Of a DNA stretch of 64,000 nucleotides, positions 31,401 through 39,800 are shown piece by piece. The notes beneath the pieces are model-generated. The model ran no database searches. It worked only from the letters and a program-made list of their open reading frames with translations, and had not been told where the DNA came from. The position numbers and the translations under genes are program-made. Origin of the DNA: Macrophomina tecta (Eukaryota > Ascomycota > Dothideomycetes > Botryosphaeriales > Botryosphaeriaceae); contig JAKSGN010000006.1 of the NCBI GenBank assembly GCA_024180945.1, positions 3,596,001 to 3,660,000 of the forward strand, given 5' to 3'. The first letter of the stretch is position 1, and every line of letters begins with the position of its first letter.

Positions 31401-34315
31401 AAAGAAAAGGCGAGCGGCAATGTGGGATGTTCCCGCGGAGCCGCGTCAAGCACCCGCCAGCAGAAAGCCAAGTCGATGAGCTACCACTCTGGTGGAGCGC
31501 GGGCGGGCGGCAGTCGGCATACCTTGCACCGGATGTGTGGTTTTCCTTTACGAGGACGAACAGGCGAATGGCAATATCGGGAAGTTAATATGGGCAGGTG
31601 CTATATTCGGCGCCTTGGGGACAGCGGGGACCACAGCAGCACGCCTTTTGACTCAGGCAGCAGCACGGGCAAGCAGAGTTTGGCGGGCATGCGCTTTCAT
31701 GCCGGTAGAACTGTCAAGCGACGAGGCTGCCCTCTAGACGATTGCTAGCGAGCGTCCGAGTGCCCGCAAAGCTCCCTGTGGCGTCTTTTGGTCGGTCGAC
31801 TCTAGAGCGAAAGCGACCGACGCAGGTCGTTGCCAAGCATCGCCGGCCGCTGGGAGTCTAGATTGTCCGGCGCTTTAGAGTCTGCCTTAGCCTGCGAGCG
31901 CAAAACGTGCGACGGCGCGGTCAGCCTGCCTGTGCAAACTTCTGACGGTCTCACAGGCTACGGGGTGCTGGTGTGTCAGGCACCAGGGCAGCAAAGGAAC
32001 AAAAAAACAAAAGCGAAAGCGAGGCGAGTTGGGATCGTGCATAGGGGCGTGTGAAATGTAGGGAGGAAAAAGCAACACAGGCCCAGCCCAGCGATTATTC
32101 CACCATGCAACACAGGCGCACGTTTGGTTTTGAACACCTGTCTCGCGGCGGATGTTGCCGACCGCGAGCGAGGAGGGTCCTTGCTAGGCGATAGCATTGA
32201 GCGTCTCCCTAAATATTTGAGAGTTGGCAAAAGTCTTATGCAGTGGCGCCTATTTTTGGGGGGTGGGGGGTCTCGCCAGGCACGTCGACCCTCTCGACAC
32301 CCCAGTCCAGAGCCCTCATGATCATGCCGCATCCACATCGTAGCGAAACAAGGCAAACGGCCCCTCGCGGGGGTGCACAGGGCGGTCCAATTTTAGGGCC
32401 CCGCAGCGTCTGGCAAGTCCCGGGGCCAAATGGCAGTCGGCCAGTCGGCGGTGCGAAGGAGCCGGTGGTCGAGGTGACGGGCTGTCTGTCACGTCCGGCA
32501 AGGGCGCGACCCACGGATTGAAACGACGGGCTCTGAACACGGAGCCAGACGCACGGCCAGGGCAGGCGCACGCGACGGGTTTGCTTGGGAGCATCTCGCG
32601 GCCGGCCATCGTGCGGTGACGACAGCTCTCGCGCACGCAGGATCATCAACCAGCGCGTCGGAGGCCCGCTGCTGCTCTGCGGCCCCGGGGGGTGTTACAT
32701 GAGCACTCTGCTCCAGTGCGACGGCACAGCGCGCGGCGCGGCCAATCAGGCGCGGCCGGGGCAGCAGACGTGGGGGAGGGCGCTTGGGAGGCGGTCATGG
32801 AAGAGGGTGTGCGCCTGCCTGTCAGCCCTATCCAATGTGCTGGGCCTGCTCGGGTCATCTCGATCTGCTTCCGCTCGTTCCCCTGATGAGAAGGCGTCAG
32901 AAGGGCAGCACCCATCCCCGCGGGAGAGGCACCCACCGCAAGCGAGCGCTGCCCATCATCTCTCGTCGCCCGCCCGTAGGTCTGCCGTCTGCACGCGCGC
33001 AGGCATCCGCCCGCGCCCGCCCATTGGCCCGCACGCTCTCTGCGACCCGCGACCCGCACCAGCACCAACACCAGCGAGGGCAGGGCGTTCGTCCCCCAAG
33101 CCAGCACGGGCCTCGCGCTCACCGGCGCCGGCGCAGAACGGCGGCGGATGGGCGGGCGGCGACGAGAGGCGGAGCGGCGTAGTGCTGCGGTGCGGTGCGG
33201 TGCGGTGCGTCGCGGATGTGCGGGTGCCTGGCAACAGCGACAGTGACAGTGACAGCAACAGCACGGGTGTTGGTGATGATGATGGTCCATGACGCAGGGC
33301 GGTCGGATTAGGGCTCGGAAGAGGTCGATGCCAGGCACATCCCTCGCGCAGGGCCCTCTAAGGATAGCTCAGCATTCTCCCAAAGCAGCGCGGTGGGGGC
33401 GGTAAAGGCAGCATCAACGAGGGCACGAAGGCTGTGCGAGGTTCACAGCCACTTGGTGCAGCCAGCGGGCAGCGGGCTCGCCGGGCCCCCCGCCGCACCC
33501 CGGCGCCGCTGGGCCAATGGCGCGCGCGCTCTGCTCCCGGCGCGGTGGACGAGACAGGGGCGCGGGCAGGATTGGGGCAATGATCGCTTCCCGCTGCCAG
33601 ATGGGGAGCGCGGGCGCGCGGCGTGTGCAGATTGCGGCCACAGAGCGCGCGGACACACCGCATCTCCTGCGCGGCCCCCAAGCCACCAGCTCGCCCGGCG
33701 CGCGCCATCCACGAAGATGCTGCCTTTCTTCTGCGCGACCTGCTAGCGCCGCCGCACACACCGTCTGTCCACCTCATGCCATGGGCTGTAGAGCCGTAGG
33801 GCAGCAACCCGGGCGGGCCCCAGACTTGAGCCCTCATGCGCCGCCGCGCCGCGCTGCGCTGCGCTGTGCTGCTTATACATAGAGCGCGAGTCGCCCCCGA
33901 GAGCAGCAGCGCAGCACCTCGATCGCCGACCGCTTCAAGCTCAAGCCTTGCGTCCCTATTGATCCTTCCGCCGGATTCGCCTGCCCCAACGGGACCAACC
34001 CGGCTTAAGATTTTGTGTTTCTTCCGGCCAAGAAAAAGCAATCCTTCCGGGCGATCTCGCATCATCGGCATCTGCATTTGAGATACAGCCTGGCCCCCAA
34101 GCCCGCCTTCTCGACCGGGCCCCCGTCAGCCTGGAAGGTGAAACTTCCCTCCCCGTGCCCCATGCCTTTGCTGCCCGCGCTCGAGCTCTCCTCCATCCGC
34201 ACTCTTATATTTAGTCCCCGCGGCCCGCCCGCACTCCCACAGGATTCGCCAATGCTGACCATCCCCTCAGGCCCGTTCCTCTTAATACCTCAAGCTCGCT
34301 GACACCAGAGGTCCA
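28426..34315. other. Long non-coding stretch upstream of the zinc-finger gene
   Basis: About 5.9 kb with no supportable gene. GC-rich overlapping ORFs occur on both strands (for example 28981-29760, 32646-33338 minus, 33358-34077 minus), but they are compositional, without domains or consistent splice models. Short tandem repeats occur, such as a TGCGG pentamer near 33185-33209 and GACAGT units near 33238-33255. It probably includes a large promoter and a long 5' UTR, possibly with non-coding transcripts. Confidence 0.5.
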
Positions 34316-36392
34316 ATGGTCTCATACTCGACCACCGCCATGCCATCCAACGACTTCGACCTCTACCCCTCACAGGAGGAGGCCTACTCTGGCCTGCTCG
34401 CCCACAGCCAGTACCCAGCCGCGACATATCAATTCACCACCACCTTCGACGCGCAACCCAACATTCACGCCTTCAGCGCCCCCCACCACTCCAACATGTA
34501 TGCCTTCAAGCAGAACTACCTCCCCTACTCGCCCGCCGCGTCGCCCGCCTCGGGCTCCCAATCATTCGAGGTCTGCCCGCCGCACCTCTCCACCGCCTCC
34601 GAGTCGACGGCCTCTGCGCAGAGCACGTCGCCGTCGGCCGCCGGCTCGCCCTCCATGGGCCAGCACTTCGGCAGTGAGCCCTGGAGCGTGCTGGGCCACG
34701 GCCTCGGACTTGCTCCGGGGCTCGACGCTGCTGACTCGTTCACCACGTGCGGCTTTGAGTACGAGGGCATGGTGGCGACCGACAAGATCTCGGGATGTGT
34801 TGGTGAGTCTAAATTTTCTTCGCAGCCTTCCGCCTTGCATTCCGCGTCGCAGCCGCATGTCCGGCGCGCGCGTGCGTTCAGTTCTGCGAGTCAGTCCGCT
34901 TCGGCGCGTTCGTCGACGCCGATCAAAGATGAGGATGTGTTCAAGACGCCGACAACGCCAGCGTCCGCTATGGCTTCGTTTAGCCCAGCGTCTGCGCCCC
35001 TTCCCTATCAGACCACCCGTCGATCAGCGGCCGCCATGAGCGCACACCGGACGCGCCGAAGTTCCCTTTTGTCAAGCCAAATGCGGTCTAGCGGGACGCC
35101 AACCGAGCTTTCAGCTGGCTTCGTCCCCGCCGATGCTTCAGGCTCCCCAGTCTCCCTACTTCCTGCATCCCAGCAAGCCGCTCGCAACCCTTCGTCATCT
35201 CCAATGGACTCATCCTGTTGGTTTCCTTTATCTCTCTTTTCTCGCTGCAGTCCCGCGTTGGCGCTGGTTTCCTTTACTCGATTGCTTCACTTTTATCCAG
35301 CTGCCTTGGCCCGACACTAACCACCATGATGCTTGCAGACCCGACCCTGATTCAGCCCTTCTCGGAGACTCTCCCGTTCGGGGGGTCCCCGTACCCGACG
35401 GACTTTGCAACTCCGTCTCTGCAGTTCCAATCTTTTGTGGAGCAGCCTCCGTCCCCCGCCCCCTCCAACACCTCTTCCCACAACCTCGTCGACTCGAGGC
35501 GCTTCAAGCGCTCCGGCAGCCAGTCGCCCTACCTCCACCAGCAGTCATATCAGCCTTACCCCGCCTACAACTCCGCCCGCCGCCCTTCCGCCGCATCCGT
35601 CCAGTCTCGTCAGTCCCAAACGAGTGGGCGGAGCAACAGCTTCGAGTTGGACGAGGAGTCGAGGGAGAAGGGCATGTGCCCCATTGAGGGCTGTGGCCGT
35701 GTGTTCAAGGACCTCAAGGCCCACATGCTTACTCACCAGAGTGAGCGCCCCGAGAAGTGCCCCATTACGAGCTGCGTAAGTGATCAACCCTGCTATGCAA
35801 GCCATCGGCTCGCCCTGACTCGTCTCGACAGGAGTACCATCTCAAGGGCTTCGCCCGCAAGTACGACAAGAACAGGCACACCTTGACTCACTACAAAGGT
35901 ACAATGGTGTGTGGCTTCTGCCCCGGCTCCGGTTCTGCGGCCGAGAAGTCGTTCAACCGTGCCGATGTCTTCAAGCGCCACTTGACTTCTGTCCACGGCG
36001 TCGAACAAACCCCTCCCAACAGTCGGAAGAAGAGCCCGACCGCCAAGAAGGCCTACACTGGCACCAGCACAGCAGGCACTTGCTCGACCTGCTCTGTCAC
36101 CTTCGCCAATGCTCAGGAGTTCTACGAGCATCTCGACGACTGTGTGCTGCGCGTCGTGCAGCAGGCGGATCCGGCCGAGGCCGTCAACCAGAAGCTCCTC
36201 ACGAGCGTCGCGGATGATGACGATGTCAAGGAAACTCTGGAGAAGCACCACTTGTCCAACGAGATCTCCGAATACACGGGCACCTACGACGATGAGGATG
36301 ACGAGGAGGAGTACGACAACGATGACGCGAACGACGACACCTATGGTGTGCGCCGAACTAAGAAGGCACGGCGCGGAAACAGTTCGCATTGA
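34316..36392 (+). CDS. C2H2 zinc-finger transcription factor, short form
   Basis: Exons 34316-35216, 35339-35775 and 35832-36392 give 632 aa ending at TGA 36390-36392. A Ser/Pro/Tyr/Gln-rich N-terminal half (about 1-400) is typical of activation regions. It is followed by clustered zinc fingers: Cys414, Cys419, His429, His433; then Cys441, Cys446, His462, His466; then Cys473, Cys476, His496, His501; and a weaker Cys pair with a downstream His near 530-555. After an acidic stretch (DDEDDEEEYDNDDAND) comes a basic cluster, RRTKKARRG, that could be a nuclear localisation signal. The factor should bind DNA in the nucleus; its targets are unknown. The upstream gene-free 5.9 kb suggests complex control. 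The ATG at 34340 has a better context (GCCATGC) than 34316. The frame continues past the TGA (see the extension entry). Confidence 0.9.
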
Positions 36393-36398
36393 CAATTA
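36390..36398 (+). promoter_or_regulatory. Stop codon in a readthrough-type context (TGA CAA TTA)
   Basis: TGA followed by CAATTA fits the stop-CA(A/G)(C/T)(C/T)A consensus, which includes the tobacco mosaic virus site and efficient yeast readthrough sites. By chance a given stop would match these six positions rarely, and here it sits exactly at a long in-frame extension. Confidence 0.6.
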
Positions 36399-36857
36399 AC
36401 ACATCCCCGGGGTGTCGGCTCGCACGCCGGGGATGGTACTTCCTCCATCTCCCAAAAGCCCTCTGGTGAGAGAGGCAACACTCGCAGGGTCGGTCTGACC
36501 CTGTCAAAAGGCGGGGTCACACTTCCATCGGCCAGCTCGCGCAAGAAGCGCAAGAACTACCCCGTCTCGTGGGGTTGTCCTACCGAGCGCATGAAGATGA
36601 AGAAGCGCGTACTCTGCGTGTACGACGGCCCACGCCGTCTGTGGAAGGACGACATGATGCTTGACCAGGAGTTCGAGGTCCGCATGAAGCTACCTGGCGG
36701 CGACGGCAAGCAGTGGGTCACGGACCTCGACGTGCAAACACTCAAGCGCGCAGAAGCGTTGCACTCCATGCCCGAGGAAGATAAGGGCCAGCCCAAATGG
36801 GACAATGTTATTGGTGGCGCACCAATGTCTTATGACGCCTCCGACCTCGCGATATGA
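36390..36857 (+). CDS. In-frame C-terminal extension beyond TGA, candidate readthrough
   Basis: Directly after the TGA the same reading frame is open for 155 codons to TGA 36855-36857. The bases after the stop are CAA TTA, a match to the CARYYA readthrough context. The extension looks coding: a Ser/Arg/Lys-rich linker ending SSRKKRKNYPVSWGC, then a compact block, MKMKKRVLCVYDGPRRLW, MMLDQEFEVRMKLPGGDGKQ and VTDLDVQTLKRAEAL. I believe I have seen this block at the C-terminus of related fungal zinc-finger proteins, but cannot check. The long product would be 787 aa. Alternatives are an in-frame intron over the TGA, for example 36311-36487 (177 nt, GTACGA..CGCAG) or 36348-36458 (111 nt), a nonsense mutation, or a sequence error. 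Confidence 0.75.
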
Positions 36858-39800
36858 CCGCCAGATGACGGCCTCGTCTACCTTTTGTACTTCTAACTGG
36901 GTTCTCCCAATACTCAGGGGTCCTTGACCTCTATTTCCCTTACAAGCTTTTGCTCGCTATACCTCTTGTTCTTCGATGTTCGGCGTTGGGGAACAGCAGC
37001 GATCTGGGGGATACCATGTACACTCCGTACTTGCTTCTTGGCCTTGAAATTCTTCTACGCCAGTGTCTTGTCACTACTTGGCGCCAATGTTGGTTGGACG
37101 GCTGAAAGTCTATTCATTGACTCCGACTACCTCAACAACAACAAGCCTTCCCCCATTCGAAGCGCTCGCTGAGGGATGGAATACGCGTAATGTTGGTTTT
37201 CTCATGTATTCGCTCTTCCAGCGAATCTAATCTTTTTCTTGTCACTTGTCATTTTGCGGATCATCATCGTATACCAACACAAAAAAGCGATGCCCTAAGC
37301 TAGGGCGATGGGAGGGATTTTGTCTTTTTGTCTCACGAAAGAGAGAATAGGAGAAAGGCGGGATATTACTATGGTTCGGCTGGTCTGGACATTTTTTCTT
37401 ACTACTGCATCAAACCAAATACCACACAAACACACATGATGAATCTAGATAGCGCTTCTTCTACACATGTTTGAAGGCGGGGGGAACCGGAACGAGTAAC
37501 GTTGTAGTCACAGAGCAATGTCAAAGGAACTGCTATCAAAGCAAACGTACTAAATTCTCACTCACCCTCGCAAAATGTGACCTCTTTTGCTTATTGGTTC
37601 GCGGTTGCCTGAATCACACAAAACTCGGTCACGGCACAGTTCGTGTAGGGTTGCTTGGTGTTGGTTTGTCCCGATCATGAGGCCTTTTTTGTGTGTCATC
37701 ATCCCGTCCCGTCTCCACTCTGGCCTTCTTTCTTCCTGTTTGAAGCGTTCCGTGATCCATCTCGTTCCCCTGCCTCAAGATCCTTGTCGGTTTTTTTTCT
37801 TCTTGCTACGCCGCCAACCAGCATGAATCCTGCTGTTCTTGTCGGCCCCCAAACCCCCACTTTGAACGCGTCTTTTACTGTCCCTCCTTCCAACGCAAAA
37901 GGATCTGAGACACATGGACCCGAATTCTTTTTTGATTACTCGTTCTCACTTACACACGCACACACACTCTCTCTCTCTCATTCTCAGGAGTGGGGAGCAC
38001 ACGAGCAGCCCACGCGCGCTTGCAATCCTTCGAGACATTCACTGCCCGGCTGCTCTTTCCTTTCTTCCTCTCTTACATACCACCAGCCACTCAGCCTCCC
38101 CCTTGCCCCTGCTTTTGTTCGTGACTGGAAACAGCTGTTCGCGCGGGCCGGTAGGTTTTGGTAGAAGGAGCGGACGTGAAGTTTAATGTTTGACGCTAGA
38201 GGAGAGGAAGCGGCGGCGGCGCCCTGCTGCGGGGCGTTCGTCCGTCGCTCTTCACAGTACTTTCAATGCCCTTTTCGATGGGCGCTTGGTCTTTCGTGTT
38301 TGTTCTGGCCTAAGGTGTCTATTGCGAGACCATCTCCCCACTAAGATCCAAGCCATCGCACCCTTTTTTATTTTTTTTTTTCCCTCTCTTGAAGCCCGAG
38401 CGTTCGGACCGTGCTCTCACACCGGCTTTTCCGAGCAGGAACAAACCGCCTCTATCAATGACCGTTCGATAGTAGGTTTGCACTATAATTGCGCCGAATA
38501 GACAGAGTGCTTAAACGAATTGGCCTCGTTCCCACGTCGGGTAAGTACTGGCTTTTGAGCTAGAGGGGGCACGAGCCGATACCCTTTGCCACTTCAGGCA
38601 GTACGGCAGCTAGCTTCAGCGGAAGAGCAAAAAGGTTCGTTCGGCCGGGTAGCGGGGGCGCTCGCTTTCTCCCTCTCCCTCGCGCTCTCGGCCGGCCCCC
38701 TTTCGGCAGAGCGACAGCATGAAACGACGGACCGGTACGGGGAAGAGGGGAAGGCATTTTTGCGGCCGCCCGCCGTGGCCGTTCCCGGCTCATTACGCTC
38801 TTTCGGAACCGACGCACGGGGAGCACTGGCTGCTTCCGGTGTAGGGTACGGATGGACGAGGGCCGGACCGAACGCTGCTCTCTTTCTTACGTCCGGTCAG
38901 TCGGCCGGAATGGCGCCGCGAGGTGGTGTGCCGGGCAATGGCGTGAGTTCGTGGGCCTGTGGGATTAGCAGCCCGTGGTTGCTCCTCGCTCTCCTCACAC
39001 GCTCTCTTTCTTGTGACGCCCGTTTCCCCGGCTGAGACAGGACGAGTGCGATTCGGCGAAGAGGATGCGCACTATCCACAGCGCCGCCGCGGCGATCAAT
39101 GCGGGGAAGGGGAGGTGTTTCCGGGTCGTGGATAGCCCAGGCCGCCGGAGAGTGGCCCATCTCTGCTTGCGCCTAAATCGTCCCACAAATCGTCCGACAA
39201 ATTATGGGCGCTTTCGACTTTTCCCTGTCCGCGCGAGGGCCTAGATTGCCAGAGCGACGGAGGGGGAGCAAGCAGCAGCCAGAGAGAGTCGGCGAGCGAG
39301 CCAAGAGCGGGCGCACGAGGCTGGCTGAGCTTGGGCAGACGTGGCTCCAGGCTCCAGACCCTTTTCTCTGCTCACCACTCCCCGTGTAGCCAAAGGCACA
39401 TGGTCAAACGACGTTATACCATCTCCCGTATTTCCCTACATCTCGTGCTCGACGGCCTTGCACTGCGCGCGCCCGCCCACGCGCTCTGTGTGTCTCTCTC
39501 CTTCTCGTAACTCTAAAAATGGGAGTAGCGTTCTGACCGCATGCGCATGCACGCCGTAGGTATTCGTCTCCCGCGGCTTGCATTTCTTCAAAAAGCCCGC
39601 CCCTTATTCTCCTTTTCCCTCCTTTAGCTTCCGACAGCGACCAAAAAAAAAGGAGCAATGATAATGGCCCGCCTTGGTTAAGATAGACTAACTCGAAGAC
39701 GGCGTGGCGGTGCACAATCTCCACCGCCACCCTCTCAGTCACATAGAGGTACTGTCTCTCTTCACCTTACCCGCATAAACCCCATGCACCCTTGTCTTTT

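Follow-up and report, generated by a model that had tools for sequence, protein, structure and literature searches.

Results

The gene and its two products

The window, by which we mean the whole stretch of 64,000 nucleotides that was analysed, lies in a genome of 54.1 Mb in 37 contigs. We found in it a C2H2 transcription factor gene (34316-36857, plus strand) in which a first TGA is followed in the same frame by a CARYYA hexamer, a predicted RNA hairpin, a linker and a conserved C-terminal domain (Table 1).

Table 1. Features of the transcription factor gene, in positions of the window.
Feature	Position	Strand	Basis
C2H2 transcription factor, product of ordinary termination	34316-36389	+	Gene model; P0074 100% identical over the aligned part
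Intron with zinc-finger exons on either side, GTAAGT donor	35776-35831	+	Read across in frame by orthologues
Putative leaky stop codon, TGA	36390-36392	+	Sequence; aligned stop shared by the majority of 116 exon-3 frames that have no tail
CAATTA, match to the CARYYA readthrough hexamer	36393-36398	+	Sequence; Gln-[Ser/Leu/Pro] after the Trp that some relatives have at the stop
Post-stop linker; blocks common to relatives THPRGV..HAGDG, KPSGERG, GLTLSKGG	36393-36521	+	Sequence comparison
Predicted RNA hairpin, starting 9 nt past the stop	36402-36435	+	Pair probabilities, window folding ranks
Conserved C-terminal domain, precomputed label PF28332	36522-36854	+	16 invariant columns in 60 aligned tails
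Stop of the extended product, TGA	36855-36857	+	Sequence

Two alternatives exist for the intron of the first exon, 35217-35338 or 34803-35338. The products of 632 and 787 aa announced by an earlier, sequence-only reading of this DNA are obtained when 35217-35338 is removed together with 35776-35831; with 34803-35338, as in P0001, they become 494 and 649 aa. Both kinds of end are found among the models of Macrophomina phaseolina: P0074 (B0J12DRAFT_32997), with 100% identity over the aligned part, terminates at the first TGA (RRGNSSH), and the tail is present in P0001 (strain MS6), whose model drops the equivalent of 36346-36510. The last 107 residues of the extended product match a single place in the genome.

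For its single acceptor at 35338, exon 1 offers a choice of two donors in the same phase, at 34803 (GTGAGT) and at 35217. The 138 codons that separate these donors look coding (STPIKDEDVFKTPTTPASA); this stretch is partly kept in P0074 and absent in P0001, and similar stretches occur in P0021, P0029, P0043 and P0109. The donor pair probably provides a second pair of isoforms, based on splicing.

The stop, its context and the open frame

The window encodes GNSSH, the stop and then QLTHPRGVGSHAGDG, the codon before TGA being CAT. The stop, the six bases behind it and the frame continuing to the second TGA could all be read in the sequence as the sequence-only reading had them, except that the open stretch counts 154 sense codons, not 155. 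That CAATTA matches CARYYA and equals the six bases of tobacco mosaic virus agrees with the consensus in the passages cited from PMC3542737. Of the 3580 stop triplets that the window has when both strands are counted, 4 are followed by such a hexamer.

The long open tail had been taken as a sign of coding. Its length alone is weak evidence because a stretch this long has a chance of 1.4% (stop-triplet frequency of the window) to 2.8% (local frequency); the codon scores of the tail do favour the used frame (0.131, the other five frames reaching at most -0.109). In the post-stop linker this frame was the best of six yet negative, a weak signal (-0.211). A sequencing error as the source of the TGA was rejected: P0074, from a contig of a different length (3,636,994, against more than 3,660,000 for that of the window), ends at the same place, and the stop is also present in a near relative, P0241.

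The tail as part of the protein in relatives

A protein search with the region from the zinc fingers to the end found 1721 proteins and one with the tail only found 260, the best 120 being listed in each case. Among the matches listed, zinc fingers and tail occur in one chain in Pezizomycotina orthologues from Dothideomycetes, Eurotiomycetes and lichen fungi, and lineages without the stop also have the tail fused to the zinc fingers. The listed Eurotiomycetes and Zasmidium-like proteins have another linker with no stop. The linker of P0102 is stop-free as well; this protein resembles Zasmidium P0101 by eye and, judged by its name, would derive from a transcript. The tail is strongly conserved, and the conserved C-terminal block proposed from the letters turned out to be a domain that is kept and fused in relatives, with 16 invariant columns in 60 tails.

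Most of the 120 listed matches of the tail search are frames holding the tail only, and among the 360 listed proteins a recognisable tail is found without the pre-stop HLDDC anchor in 110 and together with it in 131. If the TGA were the true end of the gene, the tail would be a separate gene or a dead remnant, as the end of P0074 and the partial tail-only models of Bimuria, Cucurbitaria, Glonium and two Phaeosphaeriaceae (P0126, P0133, P0137, P0138, P0147) could suggest. However, many of the species listed have zinc fingers and tail in one protein, the first ATG within the tail (36591) comes only after conserved linker sequence, the listed tail-only frames start at many different places, and conservation of the tail is strong. 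We consider this explanation scarcely credible.

No solved structure for the tail was found by sequence or profile search, and Pfam and NCBIfam profile searches of the submitted sequences named no tail domain, PF28332 being a precomputed label only. The AlphaFold model of the tail (60 aligned tails, window included) had a mean pLDDT of 60.7 and a pTM of 0.29. One fungal tail protein, P0226, is recorded as belonging to the bacterium Terriglobus roseus (MAG) and looks like fungal contamination.

Recurrence of a stop at one aligned place

A search with exon 3 only, which admits proteins of about 102-326 aa, gave 553 matches. The tail is present in 4 and absent in 116 of the best 120 listed, a ratio that is not a frequency because longer run-on frames are under-sampled. 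The 116 tail-less frames, which may include indistinguishable frames cut by contig ends, end 3-18 residues past a GKG-like basic anchor in 98 cases among these matches, and the other 18, in which the anchor is missing, mostly stop within the same basic linker when inspected by eye; clear exceptions that end elsewhere are P0321 and P0339, and P0294 is doubtful. Typical residues before the stop are KSTKSH, SIKNKSH, KQNQH and KAGNSS, the final one being Ser in 52 frames, His in 31, Asn in 10 and others in 23. In 44 of the 116 this residue is not encoded by any NNG codon, and a phase-2 GT donor is therefore not the shared stop in these frames; together with the CAT before the TGA of the window, this led us to reject a conserved donor of that kind as the origin of the shared stop.

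We placed the frames by best match to 66 of the best 120 zinc-finger-to-end proteins and grouped them by the orders of these proteins, which gives a placement and not a tree. The larger groups were Mycosphaerellales (44), Pleosporales (43), Venturiales (14) and lichen classes (5), followed by Trypetheliales (3), Botryosphaeriales (2), Mytilinidiales (2), unplaced Dothideomycetes (2) and Eurotiomycetes (1), this last frame being P0355 with 68% identity only. The comparison of orthologues called for by the sequence-only reading thus shows the tail in one product and a recurrent aligned stop, present in many Dothideomycetes and in some of the lichen fungi, its conservation being judged by protein ends in the relatives and not by the letters of their stop triplets. 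Four scans of genome and viral contig collections gave no match to the DNA of relatives for this gene, and UGA with CAAUUA is known at the DNA level from this genome alone. Five pairs of a stop-ended and a tail frame have equal longest-contig sizes (1778, 183328, 4883, 2936, 62489), which suggests that the two frames of each pair lie on one contig.

Introns predicted around the stop

The stop could be removed by an intron, maybe spliced at times only, ordinary translation then giving the full-length protein. Stop-removing introns had already been named from the letters, and some annotations do predict them but differently from species to species. The in-frame GT-AG pairs around the stop are 36346-36510 (that of P0001), 36348-36458, 36311-36487 and 36382-36474. 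Two of these would give plausible linkers. Splicing of 36382-36474 would produce RRGNSNTRRVGLTLSKGG, equal in length to RKGNGSSRRVGLTLSKGG of Diplodia P0002, and splicing of 36348-36458 would produce TYGPSGERGN, like TYGPLGEKGN of Phyllosticta P0007; TTAAC at 36396 is a candidate branch point. The candidate donors are weak, however (GTTCGC, GTGTGC, GTGCGC and GTACGA, with no GTAAGT or GTGAGT), and the first AG past the stop is at 36458. Every candidate intron removes the post-stop block common to relatives and most also remove the basic block or GLTLSKGG. Gene models vary between species and even between Hortaea strains, and an intron leaves the recurrence of the stop at one aligned place unexplained. 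Splicing, for example of 36382-36474, is the chief alternative to readthrough, but an unlikely explanation in our view. A mini-intron ending before GGTGTC (about 36411), where the models of other species resume, was rejected, there being no AG and too little room.

The linker jumps differ among the models of Diplodia, Neofusicoccum, Phyllosticta and the Hortaea strains. P0241, which ends with RRGNNSH and the stop, is 99% identical over 123 aa to Lasiodiplodia P0003, whose model jumps there; a stop-ended frame and a jumping model are 98% identical in Stemphylium (P0284/P0037) and in Hortaea (P0303/P0047).

Residues at and after the stop in relatives

Trp occupies the aligned stop place in P0025 (KNQQWQPTG), P0027 (KQNQHWQLTGG), P0145 (GNSSWQSTHPQGVSLHVGGG) and P0212 (SNWQSTHSQGVGETQHA), each time followed by Gln-[Ser/Leu/Pro], and Gly is found there in P0008 (QHGQSIGG). 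Since Trp-Gln-[Ser/Leu/Pro] is what TGG-CAR-YYA encodes, the context is maybe shared, protein letters being no proof. The in-frame peptide after the stop in the window is similar to those of P0145 (QSTHPQGVSLHVGGG) and P0071 (STHPRGVSNQHVGGG). P0145 is 96% identical over 132 aa to the tail frame P0158, which starts after the stop place, and this suggests that Trp and a stop occur in close relatives. The HVGGG-type block was kept in P0145, altered in P0212 and not seen by eye in P0008, P0025 and P0027.

A predicted hairpin after the stop

Positions 36402-36410 were predicted to pair with 36427-36435 (probability 0.99-1.0), with an inner stem between 36412-36414 and 36423-36425. This hairpin was the most stable of the 2768 40-nt windows of the mRNA, and only 2 of 12792 40-mers sampled from the plus strand of the window folded at least as well. 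The z values against dinucleotide shuffles were -3.6 (36399-36450) and -3.25 (36390-36480). For the 54 nt after the stop, 59 of 10000 synonymous encodings folded as well, a result that we take as only suggestive because, among 41 control segments taken from the gene, 2 were more extreme; for the hairpin alone, chosen post hoc, the number was 11 of 10000. No significant folding bias was found in the post-stop peptides of relatives. The hexamer and the strong hairpin, the latter absent from the sequence-only reading, fit known readthrough signals as described in the cited part of PMC3542737. Selenocysteine redefinition is not supported: Rfam gave no match, SECIS elements included, in 34000-38000 with E up to 1.

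With A-to-I editing, some of the mRNA would carry UGI in place of UGA and be decoded as if it had UGG (Trp), for instance in sexual development. Editing would accord with the Trp encoded at the stop place in P0025, P0027, P0145 and P0212 and with the AMD1 gene of Fusarium, in which an edited in-frame stop had been masked by a false intron prediction (PMC5496914, in the passages cited), the models here doing likewise. According to the cited portion of PMC11156358, editing in fungi has a strong preference for a U at -1 and for hairpin loops, which favours UAG and UAA. Here, in contrast, the A is preceded by G, and the fold prediction leaves the stop unpaired between stems and not in a hairpin loop; editing is disfavoured for these reasons and we regard it as very improbable.

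Discussion

We propose that the UGA is subject to programmed readthrough, old and conserved, that would give two forms of the regulator, a reading to which we assign a probability of roughly 80% on computational grounds. Readthrough was the explanation offered by the sequence-only reading, and the computations support it through the orthologue tail, the recurring stop, the hexamer and the hairpin. The age would follow from its sharing by Dothideomycetes and lichen fungi. Most ribosomes would stop at the UGA at 36390 and release a form without the C-terminal domain. Some would insert an amino acid there, probably Trp via a near-cognate tRNA, and translate 154 further codons, so that the product gains the linker and the conserved domain. 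The leakiness would be set by the UGA with CAAUUA plus the hairpin 9 nt past the stop. We infer that relatives use UGA with such a context and hairpin, that ribosomes do read through here, what amino acid they would insert, and that the balance between the two forms is important. In the passages cited, UGA-C contexts are leaky, CARYYA acts on UGA too and readthrough structures typically start about 8 nt past the stop (PMC3542737), and CARYYA triggers readthrough in yeast (PMC3609751).

It also seems rather probable that a single translational switch predates the split between Dothideomycetes and Lecanoromycetes. A cassette of UGA, CARYYA and hairpin would set the share of the form with the C-terminal domain; it would have been lost several times via Trp, Gly or deletion, the hairpin-coding block then often decaying, and the gene models would be wrong in many genomes.

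Two of the closest known parallels are viral. Type I readthrough, as in tobacco mosaic virus (UAG-CAR-YYA; PMC3542737, in part), has the same six bases after the stop, whereas here the stop is UGA, the gene is a nuclear fungal one and there is an additional strong hairpin. Viral type II readthrough (UGA-CGG or UGA-CUA with an extended stem-loop about 8 nt downstream) resembles the present case by UGA-C and a similarly spaced stem-loop, but here CAAUUA replaces CGG or CUA and the gene encodes a cellular transcription factor.

Insects and mammals have documented cases of conserved readthrough, and so do fungi among their peroxisomal enzymes (PMC4207609, in the part cited). The peroxisomal cases of fungi and animals, at UGA CU(A), likewise provide a functional C-terminus via UGA in fungi, as described there; they differ by their hexamer, by a short targeting signal instead of a 154-codon tail with a domain, and by concerning metabolic enzymes and not a transcription factor. 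The A-to-I stop correction of PUK1 and AMD1 in Fusarium shares with our case an in-frame stop, a conserved protein and a false intron (PMC5496914 and PMC11156358, both in part), although it acts on UAG with U at -1, here UGA with G at -1. The programmed frameshift of PaYIP3 in Podospora is also a recoding event of a filamentous ascomycete that yields a short and a long form (PMC3777964, in part), by frameshift there and by stop readthrough here.

A literature search on readthrough and editing, most subscription journals lying outside it, gave among the top matches listed no report of readthrough for this factor or in Dothideomycetes; the one paper that combined readthrough, stop codon and Dothideomycetes describes a fission-yeast genome, and a search under a factor name gave no match. 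If our proposal is true, gene regulation in filamentous fungi would have a control knob in translation termination, and two large fungal classes would share a transcription factor whose readthrough tail is 154 codons long. It would also correct a gene model that predictors treat inconsistently across many genomes. The natural series of stop, Trp, Gly and deletion offers a test of why a leaky stop is kept.

The annotated linkers of P0001-P0120 differ between genomes; public models of this family need care in that region.
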